Positions 36,983 to 44,554 of a stretch of DNA of 64,000 nucleotides are shown piece after piece. The position numbers were made by a program, and so were the translations under genes. The notes beneath the pieces are model-generated. The model ran no database searches. It was not told the origin of the DNA and saw nothing but the letters and a program-made list of their open reading frames with translations. The number at the start of each line of letters is the position of its first letter. Position 1 is the first letter of the stretch. The stretch comes from Gilliamella mensalis (GTDB lineage: Bacteria > Pseudomonadota > Gammaproteobacteria > Enterobacterales > Orbaceae): the NCBI RefSeq assembly GCF_900103085.1, contig NZ_FMWR01000007.1, forward strand, positions 62,001-126,000. Reading direction: 5' to 3'.

Positions 36983-36998
36983 TGTGATCTGGATCAGA
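36983..36998. promoter_or_regulatory. CRP-like binding site between gntK and gatA
   Basis: TGTGATCTGGATCAGA fits the CRP consensus TGTGA-N6-TCACA with a single mismatch, set in T-rich flanks. It lies about 90 bases from the gntK start and 200 from the gatA start. It may serve either divergent operon; catabolite control of both would make sense. A much weaker half-site match (TCACA) is at 37071-37075. Confidence 0.65.
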
Positions 36999-37103: not shown

Positions 37104-37146
37104 TTCGAAAGAAAATAATCTTTCGATATTGTTTTTGTTTTCGAAA
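37104..37146. promoter_or_regulatory. Probable GatR operator region before gatA
   Basis: TCGAAAG (37105-37111) and CTTTCGA (37120-37126) form an inverted repeat with 8 bases between, followed by TTTTCGAAA at 37138-37146. TTTTCGAAA recurs at 40555-40563 before the regulator gene gatR. DeoR-family repressors often bind repeated TTTC-type half-sites, so GatR is the likely ligand. A possible -10, TATAAT (37149-37154), follows directly. Confidence 0.6.
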
Positions 37147-37191: not shown

Positions 37192-37644
37192 ATGAACAAA
37201 TGTCAACTTCTTTTCGAAGACAATCTTAAATTTGACAATGAGTTAGAGGCATTAACTTATGTTAGTGAACAATTACAACAAAAAGGGATTGTTAAAGAAA
37301 GCCATTTGCAGGCTTTAATTGACAGAGAGGCATTATTTCCAACAGGTATTGCTTTTGATGGATATGCGGTGGCCATTCCTCATTGTGAAGCAACGCATGC
37401 TAATACACCAGCAATTTTTATTGTTCGCACTCAAACACCGGTTGCTTTTCATCGAGCCGATGATGACAGCACCGTTGATGTTTCATTGATTATTTCACTT
37501 GTTGTGACTGCCCCAGAAGATCAAATTGAACTATTAAAAGCACTTTTTTCAAATCTACAAAATGAAGAATTCTATCAGTTTTTATTAAATGCCCCGCAGG
37601 ATGAAATAGCGGTGCATTTTAATAACGAGATATTTAACCAATAA
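37192..37644 (+). CDS. gatA: Galactitol-specific PTS enzyme IIA
   Basis: 150 residues (E. coli GatA has 150). PTS EIIA type 2 domain; the phosphorylated histidine is in VAIPHCEATHANTP, and LIDREALFPTGIAFDG is closely matched to GatA. It receives phosphate from HPr and passes it to GatB. GGAGAAC ribosome site. First gene of the gat cluster, read divergently from gntK across 290 bases of regulatory DNA. Confidence 0.95.
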   Translation: MNKCQLLFEDNLKFDNELEALTYVSEQLQQKGIVKESHLQALIDREALFPTGIAFDGYAVAIPHCEATHANTPAIFIVRTQTPVAFHRADDDSTVDVSLIISLVVTAPEDQIELLKALFSNLQNEEFYQFLLNAPQDEIAVHFNNEIFNQ

Positions 37645-37659
37645 GTTTCAGGAGGCACT

Positions 37660-37944
37660 ATGAAAAAAAAGATTATTGTTGCTTGTGGCGGTGCGGTTGC
37701 AACATCAACTTTAGCTGCAGAAGAGATAAAAGAGTTGTGTAGCGAAAATAATATTCAACTTGACCTGGTTCAATGTCGTATCAATGAAATCAATACTTTT
37801 ATTGATGATGTTGATTTGATTTGTACTACAGCCAGAATGGATCAAAGTTTTGGCGATATTCCAATTGTTCATGGCATGCCTTTTGTATCTGGTGTGGGTA
37901 TCGACCAGTTGAAAGAAAAAATTTTATCTATTTTAAAAGGATAA
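37660..37944 (+). CDS. gatB: Galactitol-specific PTS enzyme IIB
   Basis: 94 residues, the E. coli GatB length, and nearly identical in motifs: the phospho-accepting cysteine is Cys9 in [20 protein letters not shown], and [20 protein letters not shown] is conserved. It transfers phosphate to galactitol during transport by GatC. AGGAGG ribosome site; only four bases separate it from gatC. Confidence 0.97.
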
Positions 37945-37948
37945 ATCT

Positions 37949-39331
37949 ATGTTTACTGAAATTATGCAGTACATTTTGGATCTTGGTCCATCGGTGATGT
38001 TACCCATTGTGATTATCCTATTTTCGTTAGTGCTAAGAATGAAAGTGGGTGATGCACTAAAAGCGGGGATTCATATAGGAATAGGGTTTGTTGGTATCGG
38101 TCTGGTTGTTGGTTTGCTAACCAGTTCGGTTGGGCCGGCAGCTCAAGCGATGGCAGAACGATTTGATATTAGCCTAAATGTTATTGATGTTGGTTGGCCA
38201 GGGGCTGCACCAATGACTTGGGCATCACAAATTGCTTTAGTTGCTATTCCTATCGCAATTGGTGTGAATATTGTTATGTTAGTTTTAAGGTTAACTCGAG
38301 TGGTTAATGTGGACATTTGGAATATATGGCACATGACCTTTACCGGTGCGCTTGTTTATATTGCAACCGGCTCTTACTGGCTTGGTATTGCAGGGGTTAT
38401 TGTTCATGCCATTATTGCTTATAAACTCGGTGATTGGTTTGCCAAAGATACCAAAGATTTTTTTGAGCTTGACGGTATTGCGGTTCCTCATGGTACGTCT
38501 GCATATTGTGGTCCAATTGCTGTTTTTGTTGATGCTGTTATTGAAAAAACGCCGGGCATTAATAAGATTAATTTTAATGCTGTTGATATGCAAAAACGGT
38601 TTGGTGCGTTTGGTGAGCCTGTGACTGTTGGCTTATTCATGGGCATCATATTAGGTTTATTAGCTGGATATGGTGTGAAAGAAACGCTACAACTAGCGAT
38701 TCAAACTGCAGCGGTAATGTTATTAATGCCACGCGTGATTAAGCCTATTATGGATGGATTAACACCGATATCTAAGCAAGCGCGTAAACACTTGCAATCC
38801 AAATTTGGTGGGCAAGATTTTCTTATTGGTTTAGATCCCGCATTGTTGTTAGGGCATTCAACGGTGGTATCGGCGAGTTTAATTTTTATTCCATTAAGTA
38901 TTTTTATCGCCATCATCCTACCTGGTAATGAAGTTTTACCTTTTGGTGATCTGGCAACTATTGGCTTTTTTATCGCAATGGGAGTTGCGGTGCATCAAGG
39001 GAATCTGTTTAGAATCATTGTTTCAGGCTCTATCATTATCGCCATTACACTTTGGATTGCCACCCAAATGATTCCATTGACAACAAAACTAGCCATTAAT
39101 GCAGGCACGATGACTGCAAGTAATGGTGTTTCAGTTGGGGCAATGGATCAAGGTGGGTCACCCATTACTTATCTTATGGTTCAGTTGGTCAACTTAGAAC
39201 AACCTATTGGCTTTGCCTTTATTGGATTGTTTTATCTTTTCTGCTTATTTTTGACCTGGAAACGTGCTCAGAAATACCAATTATTTACGAAAGATCTGCA
39301 GTTAACTCAAGATGATGGAGTAAAAAAATAA
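37949..39331 (+). CDS. gatC: Galactitol permease, PTS enzyme IIC
   Basis: 460 residues (451 in E. coli GatC), a polytopic inner-membrane protein with about ten hydrophobic segments. Begins MFTEIMQYILDLGPSVMLP and keeps GIHIGIGFVGIGLVVGLL and the substrate-loop DGIAVPHGTSAYCGPIAVFVD. It carries galactitol across the inner membrane while GatB phosphorylates it, giving galactitol-1-phosphate. A perfect hairpin follows before gatD. Confidence 0.95.
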   Translation: MFTEIMQYILDLGPSVMLPIVIILFSLVLRMKVGDALKAGIHIGIGFVGIGLVVGLLTSSVGPAAQAMAERFDISLNVIDVGWPGAAPMTWASQIALVAIPIAIGVNIVMLVLRLTRVVNVDIWNIWHMTFTGALVYIATGSYWLGIAGVIVHAIIAYKLGDWFAKDTKDFFELDGIAVPHGTSAYCGPIAVFVDAVIEKTPGINKINFNAVDMQKRFGAFGEPVTVGLFMGIILGLLAGYGVKETLQLAIQTAAVMLLMPRVIKPIMDGLTPISKQARKHLQSKFGGQDFLIGLDPALLLGHSTVVSASLIFIPLSIFIAIILPGNEVLPFGDLATIGFFIAMGVAVHQGNLFRIIVSGSIIIAITLWIATQMIPLTTKLAINAGTMTASNGVSVGAMDQGGSPITYLMVQLVNLEQPIGFAFIGLFYLFCLFLTWKRAQKYQLFTKDLQLTQDDGVKK

Positions 39332-39369
39332 TCCCAAAATAATCAATCACCACCAAAATCAATCAGAGT

Positions 39370-39395
39370 GCTTTCACTCAGTCACTAGTGAAAGC
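39370..39395 (+). other. Perfect hairpin between gatC and gatD
   Basis: GCTTTCACT and AGTGAAAGC form a 9-bp stem around an 8-base loop in the 105-base spacer after gatC. There is no following T run, so it is more likely an mRNA-stability or processing element separating transporter and enzyme genes than a full terminator. Confidence 0.6.
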
Positions 39396-39436
39396 AATAC
39401 ATCAACGTAATTTGTTTACCAATAAAGGAAAATAAC

Positions 39437-40480
39437 ATGAAAGCGGTTGTTGTCAATGAAGGGGGAGCTTTATCTATACAGAATATAGAAATGCCCAAAA
39501 TAACATCTCCAGACCAAATTTTAGTAAAAGTCGCTTATTGTGGATTATGTGGTTCTGATATTCCGCGTATATTTCACCATGGTGCTCATTTTTACCCCAT
39601 TACACTTGGCCATGAATTTAGTGGTACTGTTGTGGATAGAGGATATAGCGTGACAGAGTTTGAGCATGGTGATTTAATCTCTTGCGTACCATTATTGCCA
39701 TGCTTCAAATGTGATGAATGTCAAAAGCATTACTATTCACTCTGTAAAAATTACACTTTTGTTGGTTCAAGAATAGTCGGTGGCTTTGCGGAGTATATCG
39801 TATTAGATAAGAAAAATGCATTTAAATTACCTAAAGGTATCAGTCCACTTGAGGGCGCCTTTTTTGAACCAATGACCGTTGGGATGCATGCATTGCTATT
39901 GGCGGATGGATGTGAGGGTAAAAATGTTGTCATCGTTGGTGGGGGTACAATTGGATTACTTGCAATGCAATGCGCCAAGGCAATGGGAGCCAAATCAGTT
40001 GCGGTGCTTGATATTAACCGGCAGCGCCTCGATCTAGCCAAACAATTAGGCGCTGATGCGGTATATCATTCTCAAGACCTTAGCACCGAAGCGATCTACC
40101 ACGCTTTATCTTCATCTCGCTTTGATCAAATTGTATTAGAAACCGCGGGTTCACCTGTTACAGTCAACTTAGCCATTGAAATTGCAGGCCCTAGAGCGAA
40201 GATAGCTTTGGTTGGGACACTTCATCATGATATTACACTTCCAGAAAAAACATTCGGACTGATTTTACGAAAAGAGTTACAAATTTTAGGCAGTTGGATG
40301 AACTATTCAGCGCCATGGCCAGGTAAAGAGTGGCAACTAGTAAGTCAGTATTTTATGGATGGAAAAATAAAACTTGATGAACTGATTGCTGGCATGGGTG
40401 ACTTTGATTCATTTATTAAACAAGTTACAGCCTTAAATGGTCGCCCTATGAATGGCAAAATTTTATTAAATTGCATGTAA
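39437..40480 (+). CDS. gatD: Galactitol-1-phosphate 5-dehydrogenase
   Basis: 347 residues (346 in E. coli). Zinc-dependent medium-chain dehydrogenase: catalytic zinc region YCGLCGSDIPRI and GHEFSG, structural-zinc cysteines in PCFKCDECQKHYYSLC, and the Rossmann motif VGGGTIGLLAMQC. It oxidises galactitol-1-phosphate to D-tagatose-6-phosphate with NAD. Close similarity to E. coli GatD throughout, including GSWMNYSAPWPGKEW. Confidence 0.96.
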   Translation: MKAVVVNEGGALSIQNIEMPKITSPDQILVKVAYCGLCGSDIPRIFHHGAHFYPITLGHEFSGTVVDRGYSVTEFEHGDLISCVPLLPCFKCDECQKHYYSLCKNYTFVGSRIVGGFAEYIVLDKKNAFKLPKGISPLEGAFFEPMTVGMHALLLADGCEGKNVVIVGGGTIGLLAMQCAKAMGAKSVAVLDINRQRLDLAKQLGADAVYHSQDLSTEAIYHALSSSRFDQIVLETAGSPVTVNLAIEIAGPRAKIALVGTLHHDITLPEKTFGLILRKELQILGSWMNYSAPWPGKEWQLVSQYFMDGKIKLDELIAGMGDFDSFIKQVTALNGRPMNGKILLNCM

Positions 40481-40554
40481 TTATTTTGATTTAAGTCAGC
40501 CATTGAAAATGAAACCTTATCTTTTGATTCTGTTTGTTATACACTGCTAAAAAA

Positions 40555-40564
40555 TTTTCGAAAA
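40555..40564 (+). promoter_or_regulatory. TTTTCGAAAA palindrome upstream of gatR
   Basis: This perfect 10-base palindrome ends 10 bases before the gatR ATG and shares TTTTCGAAA with the site at 37138-37146 before gatA. It overlaps the likely ribosome site region (AAAAAGGAAA), so binding could give autoregulation. Confidence 0.5.
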
Positions 40565-40574
40565 AGGAAATAGT

Positions 40575-41348
40575 ATGAATGCAAGTGAAAGACGCCAACA
40601 GATAGTAGAACTTCTTAATATGAAAGGGACGGTATTAGTTTCTGATTTGTCGGAACAGTTTAATGTTTCGGAGGTCACAACCAGAACCGATCTGAGATTG
40701 CTAGAAAAACAAGGAGTGCTAACACGATTTCATGGCGGAGCAACCAAAATCATGAATAACGGTGACTTAAAATCATTTAAAGAGCTGCAATTAGAAGAAC
40801 GTTATCAGCGATTTATAGAAGCTAAAAAACGTATTGCAATTGAAGCGGTTAAACATGTTAAAGAAGATGACACTATTATTTTAGATAGTGGTAGTACCAC
40901 CATGTTGATAGCTGAAGAGCTTGTAAAATTGAAGCATATTACCGTAATTACCAATAGTCTTACTTCTGCATTTATATTATCAGACAATAGTGACATTATG
41001 CTATTTATGTGTGGTGGTACACTTAGACATAAAACCCGTTCTTTTCATGGAAAAATTGCTGAGCAATCGTTAACTGGCATCTCTGCTGATATTTTGTTTG
41101 TTGGTGCAGATGGAATTGATGCAAAGAGAGGAATAACAACGTTTAACGAAGGTTACACTATCAGCAGTGTTATGGCTAATGTCGCCAAAAATGTGATTGC
41201 CGTGCTCGATTCATCAAAATTTGGGCGTAATGGGATTAATGTTGTGTTACCACTTAGCCAACTAGATACCATTATTACCGATACTGATGTTGACAGTAGC
41301 TGTAAACAAGAATTTGTGGCGAAAGGTATTAGTCTAATAGCCGTTTAA
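40575..41348 (+). CDS. gatR: Galactitol utilisation operon repressor, DeoR family
   Basis: 257 residues, the E. coli GatR length. The N-terminal DeoR helix-turn-helix (RRQQIVELLNMKGTVLVSDL and RFHGGATKIM) is followed by the sugar-phosphate-binding domain with ILDSGSTTMLIAEEL and GADGIDAKRGITTFNEGYT. It should repress the gat genes until galactitol or its phosphate appears. In many E. coli laboratory strains gatR is disrupted; here the frame is intact. It sits in the middle of the cluster and not at the end. Confidence 0.93.
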   Translation: MNASERRQQIVELLNMKGTVLVSDLSEQFNVSEVTTRTDLRLLEKQGVLTRFHGGATKIMNNGDLKSFKELQLEERYQRFIEAKKRIAIEAVKHVKEDDTIILDSGSTTMLIAEELVKLKHITVITNSLTSAFILSDNSDIMLFMCGGTLRHKTRSFHGKIAEQSLTGISADILFVGADGIDAKRGITTFNEGYTISSVMANVAKNVIAVLDSSKFGRNGINVVLPLSQLDTIITDTDVDSSCKQEFVAKGISLIAV

Positions 41349-41537
41349 TATTTGCGCTTACAATGGTGTGCCTTTTTTAAAATATCTTTAACCAGTGATA
41401 AATATTAAGAACCATTGCTTGTTTAGGTTGGATACCGTGAATGATAAAAGCGCTTGTTCCTAATTAAAGTCTATTTAATGATATTGATCATTTAAACCTG
41501 TTATTTCTCCCAACGATATTAATGCGTAGGTGAGAAT

Positions 41538-42482
41538 ATGATATTAACAATTACGATGAACCCTTCGGTGGATATATCGTATCCATTAAATAAATTGGTT
41601 ATTAATGATATTAATCGAGTCTCAAAGGTAAAAAAAACTGCCGGAGGTAAAGGGCTTAATGTAACTCGAGGCATTAAATATTCAGGTATTCCCGTTCTTG
41701 CATCAGGCATTATTGGTGGAACAACGGGCGAGTATATTCAAAAACAATTAGATAACGATAATATTAATTACAACTTTTATATCACCCAACATGAATCAAG
41801 AAACTGTATTGCCATTTTACATGAGGGAAACCAAACTGAAATCCTCGAGTCAGGGCCTGTATTAGATAATCATGATGTTAATGTTTTTCTGGAACACTAC
41901 CAGAATTTGCTTAGCCAAGCGCAGGTTATTGCTATTTCAGGGTCATTGCCACAAGGATTTCCAGTTGATTTTTATACTCAATTAATTGAAAAGGCAAATA
42001 AGTATCAGATCCCAGTATTGCTAGACTCATCGGGTAAAATGTTATTAGAAACACTCGTGTCTAAAAATAAACCTTTTTTAATCAAACCCAATAAAGATGA
42101 ACTACAGCAGATTATTCAAATGGATATCGATCCAAATGATGTAGCTTCATTAGTTAAAGCCGTCAATCATCCTTTACTGAATGATATTGCTTTTATCATC
42201 ATCTCATTAGGTAAAAATGGCGCTTTTGCTCGTTGTCATCACAACTATTACCAAGTATCAATTCCTAAAATTAACGTGGTTAATCCTGTTGGATCGGGTG
42301 ATGTTACGTTAGCTGGGCTTGCTGTTAGCATTCATGAAAATGAAGCTATAGAGGTAATGCTTAAACGTGCGATGACCATGGGAATGCTAAATGCAATGGA
42401 ATCGCAAACCGGTTTTGTCAATATGGATAATTATGACAAGTATTATCAACACGTTAAAGTGACAAAAATCATTGCAAAATAA
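41538..42482 (+). CDS. lacC: Tagatose-6-phosphate kinase, LacC type (PfkB family)
   Basis: 314 residues. Strongly resembles Gram-positive LacC (MILTITMNPSVDISYPLNKL; TAGGKGLNVTRGIKYSG; RNCIAILHEGNQTEILESGP), with the PfkB catalytic block NPVGSGDVTLAG near the C-terminus. It should phosphorylate D-tagatose-6-phosphate made by GatD to the 1,6-bisphosphate used by GatY. E. coli has no such gene in its gat operon and relies on phosphofructokinase. A 1-phosphofructokinase role is less likely given context and motif match. It starts 189 bases after gatR, so an internal promoter is possible. Confidence 0.9.
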   Translation: MILTITMNPSVDISYPLNKLVINDINRVSKVKKTAGGKGLNVTRGIKYSGIPVLASGIIGGTTGEYIQKQLDNDNINYNFYITQHESRNCIAILHEGNQTEILESGPVLDNHDVNVFLEHYQNLLSQAQVIAISGSLPQGFPVDFYTQLIEKANKYQIPVLLDSSGKMLLETLVSKNKPFLIKPNKDELQQIIQMDIDPNDVASLVKAVNHPLLNDIAFIIISLGKNGAFARCHHNYYQVSIPKINVVNPVGSGDVTLAGLAVSIHENEAIEVMLKRAMTMGMLNAMESQTGFVNMDNYDKYYQHVKVTKIIAK

Positions 42483-42503
42483 CAGATTAATGAGGATTAA
42501 ATT

Positions 42504-43358
42504 ATGTATCTTATTTCTAGCCAAGAGATGTTAAAAAAAGCTCAACGTGAATGTTATGCCGTGCCTGCATTTAATATACACAACCTTGAAACTATCCAAG
42601 TTGTTATTGATACTGCTAAACAGATGCAATCCCCCGTGATACTTGCAGCAACACCAGCAACTTATAGTTACGCAGGAATACAGTATTTAATCAGTATTTG
42701 TAAAACAGCAGCAAGCATTCACCATTTTCCTTTTGCGTTACATTTGGATCATCATGAAAATATCAGTGATATTCAAACAAAAATAGAGGCAGGAATTCGC
42801 TCGATTATGATTGATGCTTCGCATTATCCCTTTGAAGAAAACATCGATATAGTTAGCAAAATGGTTGCTTTTAGTCATAAATATAATGCTAGTGTTGAAG
42901 CAGAACTAGGTCGCTTAGGTGGGCAAGAAGATGATCTTATTGTCGATGATAAAGACAGCGCTTTTACCGATCCCGATGCAGCTAAAGAATATGTTGAACG
43001 AACTCGGATTGACTCTTTAGCGGTGGCAATCGGTTCAGCACATGGCCTATATAAAGGTGAGCCAAAACTGGATTTTGATCGTTTAGCAAAAATCCGCAAT
43101 AAAGTTGATATTCCGTTAGTCTTACATGGCGCATCGGGTATTCCCGAACAAATGGTTAAGCAATCAATTCGTTTGGGCATTTGTAAAGTGAATGTGGCAA
43201 CCGAATTAAAAATTGCTTTTTCAGATGCTTTAAAACAAGATTTTAAACTCCATCCTGACGCCAACGATCCTAGGCACTATATGCAGCCAGCAAAAGCCGC
43301 CATGAAAAAAATTGTTGAAGATAAAATTCGCATTTGCGGTAGTGCAGGTAAATTATAA
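42504..43358 (+). CDS. gatY: D-tagatose-1,6-bisphosphate aldolase, GatY
   Basis: 284 residues, the E. coli GatY length. Class II aldolase: zinc and catalytic residues in [37 protein letters not shown] and [10 protein letters not shown]. It splits tagatose-1,6-bisphosphate into glyceraldehyde-3-phosphate and dihydroxyacetone phosphate. In E. coli GatY needs GatZ for full activity and stability; no gatZ is present in this cluster. A degenerate partial copy of this gene lies about 0.9 kb downstream. Confidence 0.94.
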
Positions 43359-44080: not shown

Positions 44081-44288
44081 GTCAGCCCTTAAACGAATGG
44101 ATACATCGAAAGCGTAATACGTTCGTTAATGGAGAGGTCGCACAATCGGCAAATAATGAGCGATTCAAAAGATAAAAAACTAAAAGTTTAAGCGAGTTTT
44201 GACAAAACGCCGTATCATTTTTGAGGATTTCTTTCATCATGAAGTGTAAACAACTCGGCGTTTACTTATCAATTATGATTTATATTTA

Positions 44289-44445
44289 ACGAACTCAGAT
44301 TGATTTTTTAGCGGTGGCAATCGGTTTACTCATAGTTTATATAAAGGCGAACTAAAGCTAGATTTTAACTGTTTAGCAAAAATCGGTGATAAATGTGATA
44401 TTCCTTTAGTCTTACATGGCGTATTGGATATTTTCGAATAAATTC
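44289..44445 (+). pseudogene. Degenerate partial duplicate of gatY
   Basis: About 155 bases align with gatY 43004-43161. Shared stretches include AACGAACTC, TTTAGCGGTGGCAATCGGTT, TATATAAAGG, GTTTAGCAAAAATC and TTAGTCTTACATGGCG. A one-base deletion in the segment matching GSAHGL, several in-frame stops and loss of both ends show that it is not functional. Nothing like the rest of gatY is seen on either side. It points to an earlier tandem duplication or recombination between two gat clusters. Confidence 0.88.
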
Positions 44446-44554
44446 TACATCAAATAGCTACTTACAATACGTTACATGACTTGGATTATTAACTCATCAA
44501 CGTATTGTTTTTCAAGATACCATTGCCGCGATTTGGCATGAATGATTTTATTGT

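Follow-up and report, generated by a model that had tools for sequence, protein, structure and literature searches.

A stretch of 64,000 nucleotides from Gilliamella mensalis (contig NZ_FMWR01000007.1; hereafter, the window) carries what is very probably an operon for galactitol breakdown whose tail has been replaced, a LacC-type kinase being combined with a GatY aldolase that would work independently of GatZ. Seven open reading frames on the plus strand, named by profile searches, follow each other in the order gatABC-gatD-gatR-lacC-gatY, with the regulator gene in the middle, as described in an original prediction made from the sequence alone. The same order is kept in 19 of 35 Gilliamella genomes, which rules out a chance arrangement or an assembly artefact. 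The genome of the strain itself (2.28 Mb, 44 contigs) is 99.99% complete, and its closest named relatives are Gilliamella sp. Pas-s25, whose operon proteins are 96–99% identical, and G. bombi. Genome-wide questions were answered by searches with family profiles. Galactitol genes of the phosphotransferase system (PTS) have been listed as present in most Gilliamella, with nothing further said about them (PMC11325843), and searches of a paper library brought up no description of a gat-lacC operon in this genus.

The first five genes make up a recognizable gat core. GatA, GatB, and GatC each score above the curated cut-off for a galactitol-type PTS component, and GatD gives a full-length match to its family model NF007642, just below the cut-off, with the next family following at 176 bits. 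The close match to E. coli that had been predicted is found for GatB (71% identity) and GatC (61–74%), but not for GatA (40%), GatD (54%), or GatY (55%). GatR is a member of the DeoR family (PF08220, PF00455), for which no GatR-specific model reached its cut-off in the profile search. The protein is 50–72% identical to the two fragments of E. coli GatR, whose gene is split by an insertion sequence, and the same gene terminates the gat operon in other Orbaceae.

The kinase points to a different source. The best matches of LacC in the PDB are annotated as tagatose-6-phosphate kinases (2JGV, E 7e-102, and 2JG1), and the protein matches the LacC model TIGR01231 over its full length at 408.9 bits, just below a cut-off (409.55) that is passed by orthologs in two other Gilliamella. 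Among 394 sampled Enterobacterales genomes, close relatives were found in Orbaceae only; outside this family, a scan of named genomes returned mainly Bacillota (Streptococcus, Enterococcus, Staphylococcus, and their kin), at 44–53% identity. A maximum-likelihood tree was built from 60 proteins, for which the window LacC had served as the search query. In it, Gilliamella and its sister genus g3 share a single clade (98/98), which is nested within the LacC proteins of Bacillota (96/96), with support values that are rough, as the bootstrap was incompletely settled. This nesting, together with the restriction to Orbaceae among the sampled Enterobacterales, makes a horizontal origin of lacC in Orbaceae well supported, with a probable Bacillota donor of the Lactobacillales type, and the Firmicutes origin that had been raised as a question for the gene agrees with this. 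In genus g3, lacC is directly followed by lacD, as in Enterococcus, and the encoded LacD is 67–69% identical to enterococcal LacD.

The absence of gatZ, noted earlier for the operon, extends to the whole genome, in which the family model PF08013 detected neither GatZ nor KbaZ, while the E. coli control was positive. True GatZ proteins were detected at 624–630 bits in G042 (genus g4) and G043 (genus g5), showing that the search works in Orbaceae. Across the 35 Gilliamella genomes, the model gave one weak match only, a protein of 423 amino acids in G014 (L104:1432-2703), which scored 49 bits on TIGR02810 (cut-off 569) and was rejected as a hidden GatZ. This distant GatZ/KbaZ-like protein, encoded next to a PTS IIC-like gene, is possibly another sugar-phosphate epimerase.

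Comparison with related operons shows how the genes that would dispose of D-tagatose-6-phosphate (Tag6P) vary around the core. Enteric gat operons run gatY-Z-A-B-C-D-R, or gatZ-A-B-C-D-Y with a divergent gatR, and gatZ is present, and lacC absent, in all seven non-Orbaceae gat operons that were fetched as well as in E. coli. The operon of G069 is rearranged and still contains gatZ and gatY, and that of G397 runs lacD-gatZ-gatABC-gatD-gatR. In Orbaceae, the operon of genus g4 (G042) runs gatZ-gatABC-gatD-gatR, gatY and lacC both being missing beside it, and genus g3 (G037 and G038) has lacC-lacD-gatABC-gatD-gatR. The strains wkB108 and wkB171 and a metagenome-assembled genome close to the latter carry lacC without gatY at this site and belong to two separate lineages in the LacC tree, and G029 has kept gatABCD-gatR, with lacC and gatY decayed. 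The Tag6P module is gatY with gatZ in enterics, gatZ by itself in one Orbaceae genus, lacC with lacD in another, lacC with gatY in most Gilliamella, and lacC by itself in two Gilliamella lineages; the gat operon is best read as a stable gatABCD-gatR core to which an exchangeable module for Tag6P disposal is attached. Over 44 Orbaceae genomes, lacC is present in 24 of the 27 with the gat core and in one of the 17 without it (p 4e-8, a value that overstates independence, as the genomes are related). The three exceptions with a gat core are G042, which has gatZ instead, G029, with its decayed genes, and G030 (67% complete, with contig ends). No gat operon examined contains both lacC and gatZ.

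Outside gat operons, G028 carries lacR-lacA-lacB-lacC-gatY beside a divergent Gat-type PTS (L105:4672-10905), a Tag6P pathway of the Gram-positive kind in which a class II aldolase replaces lacD, and no gat operon of the gatABC-gatD type was found in this genome. The LacC tree and the GatY tree both place G028 as sister to the remaining Gilliamella, so lacC and gatY move as a pair, and the place of this pair after lacAB is a second context converging on Tag6P. In Pas-s25 and wkB171, an operon of the aga (N-acetylgalactosamine) type without an aldolase of its own is convergent to the gat-lacC operon (L014:10947-16763 and L027:11387-16861). The last gene of the aga operon in G043 (L243) encodes an aldolase 74% identical to the window GatY, and genes for GatZ and an acid phosphatase are found nearby.

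The role of GatZ and KbaZ is unsettled. In 2002, they were reportedly described as chaperones or subunits of the aldolase, and both a paper of that year on the enteric Z subunits and one from 2004 on the genes of Klebsiella oxytoca for galactitol and tagatose bear on this kind of operon. The original prediction followed the older description in stating that GatZ is needed for full GatY function, a statement that is not supported in this simple form. In 2025, GatZ and KbaZ of E. coli were reported to be C4-epimerases interconverting fructose-6-phosphate (Fru6P) and Tag6P, and expression of gatY, kbaY, or fbaA could not replace gatZ in tagatose production (PMC11907403). Together with this report, the finding that LacC and GatZ share none of the gat operons examined suggests the replacement of an epimerase by a kinase and an aldolase, rather than the loss of an essential subunit. 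With epimerization as the main task of GatZ, Tag6P would go to Fru6P in G042 and to tagatose-1,6-bisphosphate in the LacC operons, so that the mutual exclusion reflects alternative exits. With help to the aldolase as its main task, the presence of gatZ in a gat operon without an aldolase, as in G042, would be odd. This argument for an epimerase is suggestive rather than conclusive, as G042 carries a GatY paralog elsewhere (L193).

The final gene of the operon encodes a GatY-family aldolase, as had been predicted, which scores above the cut-off for tagatose-bisphosphate aldolases (TIGR01858, 465 against 443.6 bits), carries the metal-binding and catalytic motifs HLDHH80, HGLY180, and LHGASG207, and has AgaY, a tagatose-bisphosphate aldolase, as its closest PDB match (1GVF, E 1e-103). 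Judging from its place in the tree, however, it is not the ortholog of E. coli GatY: it lies outside that clade, groups with GatY of G028 (99/91), and is found, with weaker support, near the aldolases of enteric gatZABCD-gatY operons and the final aga-operon gene of G043. E. coli GatY groups instead with a second aldolase of the G. mensalis genome (97/96). The gene for the latter is part of a probable tagatose operon on contig C23 (L106:10181-16039), with genes for a TagK-like kinase, a DeoR regulator, a PfkB kinase, and fructose-type PTS IIBC and IIA components, and likewise without GatZ. Paralogs of the C23 type are retained in lineages that have no gatY beside lacC (G005 and G011), where they could cleave the bisphosphate. 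GatY of B. licheniformis cleaves tagatose-1,6-bisphosphate alone, without GatZ (PMC10101011).

With activities that we infer from family membership, GatABC would take up galactitol and phosphorylate it to galactitol-1-phosphate, which GatD would oxidize to Tag6P. LacC would then use ATP to form tagatose-1,6-bisphosphate, to be cleaved by GatY, without GatZ, into dihydroxyacetone phosphate and glyceraldehyde-3-phosphate. Transcriptional control would be exerted from upstream of gatA by GatR, probably together with CRP. The lacC gene derived from Bacillota would in this way have taken over the step of Tag6P disposal that is carried out by GatZ elsewhere. The predicted route from galactitol to triose phosphates is complete within the operon, and its proposed independence from phosphofructokinase applies to the route but not to the cell, in which pfkA is present.

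Parts of this arrangement are known from other systems. With the enteric gatYZABCD-gatR and gatZABCD-gatY operons, the window operon shares the gatA-gatB-gatC-gatD core, a DeoR-type gatR, a GatY-family aldolase, and, ahead of the genes, a CRP-like site and an operator motif that is similar; it differs in the lack of gatZ, the addition of lacC, the position of gatR before the last two genes, and a GatY closer to the aldolases of enteric gatZABCD-gatY and aga operons than to E. coli GatY. As in Gram-positive lacABCD operons, a LacC Tag6P kinase (best PDB relative 2JGV) is followed by a tagatose-1,6-bisphosphate aldolase, but the aldolase is of class II, and lacA, lacB, and a class I lacD are all absent from the seven genes; the gat operon of genus g3 does carry lacC and lacD as a complete pair. 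The D-tagatose PTS operons of B. licheniformis and Klebsiella also combine a PfkB-type kinase with a stand-alone GatY and proceed via tagatose-1,6-bisphosphate (PMC10101011). Their kinase, however, uses tagatose-1-phosphate, and the operon that looks like them is the one on contig C23.

Several observations weigh against a galactitol operon with a LacC–GatY tail. Both LacC, by less than 1 bit, and GatD, at 532.5 against 550 bits, fall below the equivalog cut-offs of their models, and kinases of the PfkB family are promiscuous. The association of lacC with the gat core comes from genomes that are related to each other, and reflects few independent events. In two Gilliamella lineages, lacC persists without an adjoining gatY, so this GatY is dispensable, and another aldolase may serve in its place. 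GatY and KbaY of E. coli show little activity when the Z partner is missing (PMC10101011), so a GatY of the same family that lacks Z could be weak as well.

It is very unlikely that LacC is a general 1-phosphofructokinase or a minor 6-phosphofructokinase that is found in the gat operon by happenstance. The narrowly missed LacC cut-off and a match to the 1-phosphofructokinase family TIGR03168 (287 bits, cut-off 216) would allow for it, but the LacC models give 409 bits and the FruK model 249, the protein groups with LacC of Bacillota, and lacC tracks either the gat core or lacAB, both of which yield Tag6P. As the genome already holds a dedicated fruB-fruK-fruA operon, pfkA, and a class II fbaA, the handling of neither fructose-1-phosphate nor Fru6P requires LacC. 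Fructose-1-phosphate as the true substrate, which the original prediction had named as a refutation, was rejected as weakly supported, given the fruBKA operon and the Tag6P-producing contexts of lacC, including that of G028. We also consider it highly improbable that the Gat-type PTS brings in some compound other than galactitol, for example galactose or tagatose. In pneumococci, galactose is what the Gat-type PTS carries, and growth on galactitol was not observed (PMC3302838); in the window, however, GatC passes a galactitol-specific cut-off, GatB is 71% identical to that of E. coli, and GatD, an alditol-phosphate dehydrogenase, always accompanies GatB and GatC, while a separate probable tagatose operon is present on contig C23.

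There is little reason to expect that Z function persists in a GatZ-like epimerase or chaperone missed by PF08013, which we regard as highly improbable. FbaA-type aldolases do epimerize at C4 in vitro (cited in PMC11907403), and the genome encodes a class II FbaA, but PF08013 detects true GatZ in other Orbaceae, and fbaA was among the genes that failed to replace gatZ in E. coli. A possible, if rather doubtful, further reading is that lacC-gatY forms a Tag6P sink common to the gat pathway and a neighboring aga pathway, with GatY serving both. Both pathways make Tag6P by established biochemistry, and the aldolase ending the aga operon of G043 and the aldolase-less aga operons of Pas-s25 and wkB171 would fit such sharing. 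In the window, however, no aga operon adjoins gat and gatY is intact regardless, and the branch joining G043 to the Gilliamella GatY proteins is weak (81–82% bootstrap). A shared sink adds to the proposed galactitol route and does not exclude it.

Table 1. Features of the gat-lacC operon region, in window coordinates.
Feature	Position	Strand	Evidence
CRP-like site TGTGATCTGGATCAGA upstream of gatA	36983..36998	+	one mismatch to TGTGATCNNGATCACA; conserved in aligned Gilliamella upstream regions
inverted repeat TTCGAAAG-N8-CTTTCGA, likely GatR operator (predicted)	37104..37126	.	conserved upstream of gatA across Gilliamella
gatA, galactitol PTS IIA, 150 aa	37192..37644	+	NF007236 167 bits, cut-off 139
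gatB, galactitol PTS IIB, 94 aa	37660..37944	+	NF007643 181 bits, cut-off 95
gatC, galactitol PTS IIC, 460 aa	37949..39331	+	TIGR00827 609 bits, cut-off 542
gatD, galactitol-1-phosphate 5-dehydrogenase, 347 aa	39437..40480	+	NF007642 532.5 bits, cut-off 550; zinc motifs
gatR, DeoR-family repressor, 257 aa, operon-internal	40575..41348	+	PF08220, PF00455
predicted hairpin pairing lacC Shine-Dalgarno and start codon, conserved, in 189-nt gap after gatR	41499..41543	+	fold z = -3.0
lacC, PfkB-family tagatose-6-phosphate kinase, 314 aa	41538..42482	+	TIGR01231 408.9 bits, cut-off 409.55; tree
gatY-like class II tagatose-1,6-bisphosphate aldolase, 284 aa	42504..43358	+	TIGR01858 465 bits, cut-off 443.6
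decayed second gatY copy, fragment	44281..44453	+	tblastn 63-73% to GatY residues 163-220, two pieces

The motifs upstream of gatA (Table 1) would fit control by GatR and CRP. CRP patterns with up to three mismatches are expected by chance in the window, and conservation is the main support for this site. The exact inverted repeat occurs nowhere else in the window, where 0.08 chance matches would be expected with up to two mismatches, and related TTTGATTTCGAA motifs precede gat genes in other Orbaceae. From gatA to gatY, the genes are separated by gaps of 15, 4, 105, 94, 189, and 21 nt, and every gap comes with a Shine-Dalgarno-like sequence. In the hairpin predicted in the lacC leader, 95% of cells are paired across 17 distinct leaders, with covariation that is weak relative to controls, and translational control of lacC is possible. 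An Rfam search of the operon region gave no matches, and a scan for intrinsic terminators between the genes gave no more than shuffled sequences did.

On one side, the operon is flanked by genes that look like gntK and edd; on the other lies a gene for a histidine-type acid phosphatase, separated from gatY by a gene-free stretch of 1.2 kb that holds the gatY remnant. A similar remnant is found in L017. In many Gilliamella, a gene for a PRK11587-like sugar phosphatase is located directly 3' of gatY (e.g., L021:9823-10470 and L235:8931), which is missing from the lineage of the window.

On balance, we lean towards the view that import of LacC displaced the GatZ epimerase in Orbaceae, a non-orthologous replacement in which the reaction differs as well, and that lacC-gatY is a portable sink, placed after galactitol, after galactose-6-phosphate handled by lacAB, and perhaps after N-acetylgalactosamine. 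If this is true, the distribution of these genes would be comparative evidence that the main role of GatZ in galactitol metabolism is the epimerization of Tag6P, and not support of the aldolase. Orbaceae provide a natural experiment, with gatZ in the absence of gatY and lacC (G042), lacC with lacD, lacC with gatY, or lacC by itself behind one and the same gat core, and, as the two readings of GatZ lead to different expectations for genotypes and for growth once genes are removed, they are directly testable. The operon itself is real and conserved, a horizontally assembled version of an operon type already known, rather than anything categorically new, and it shows a Gram-positive kinase captured by an enteric-type operon of bee-gut symbionts.

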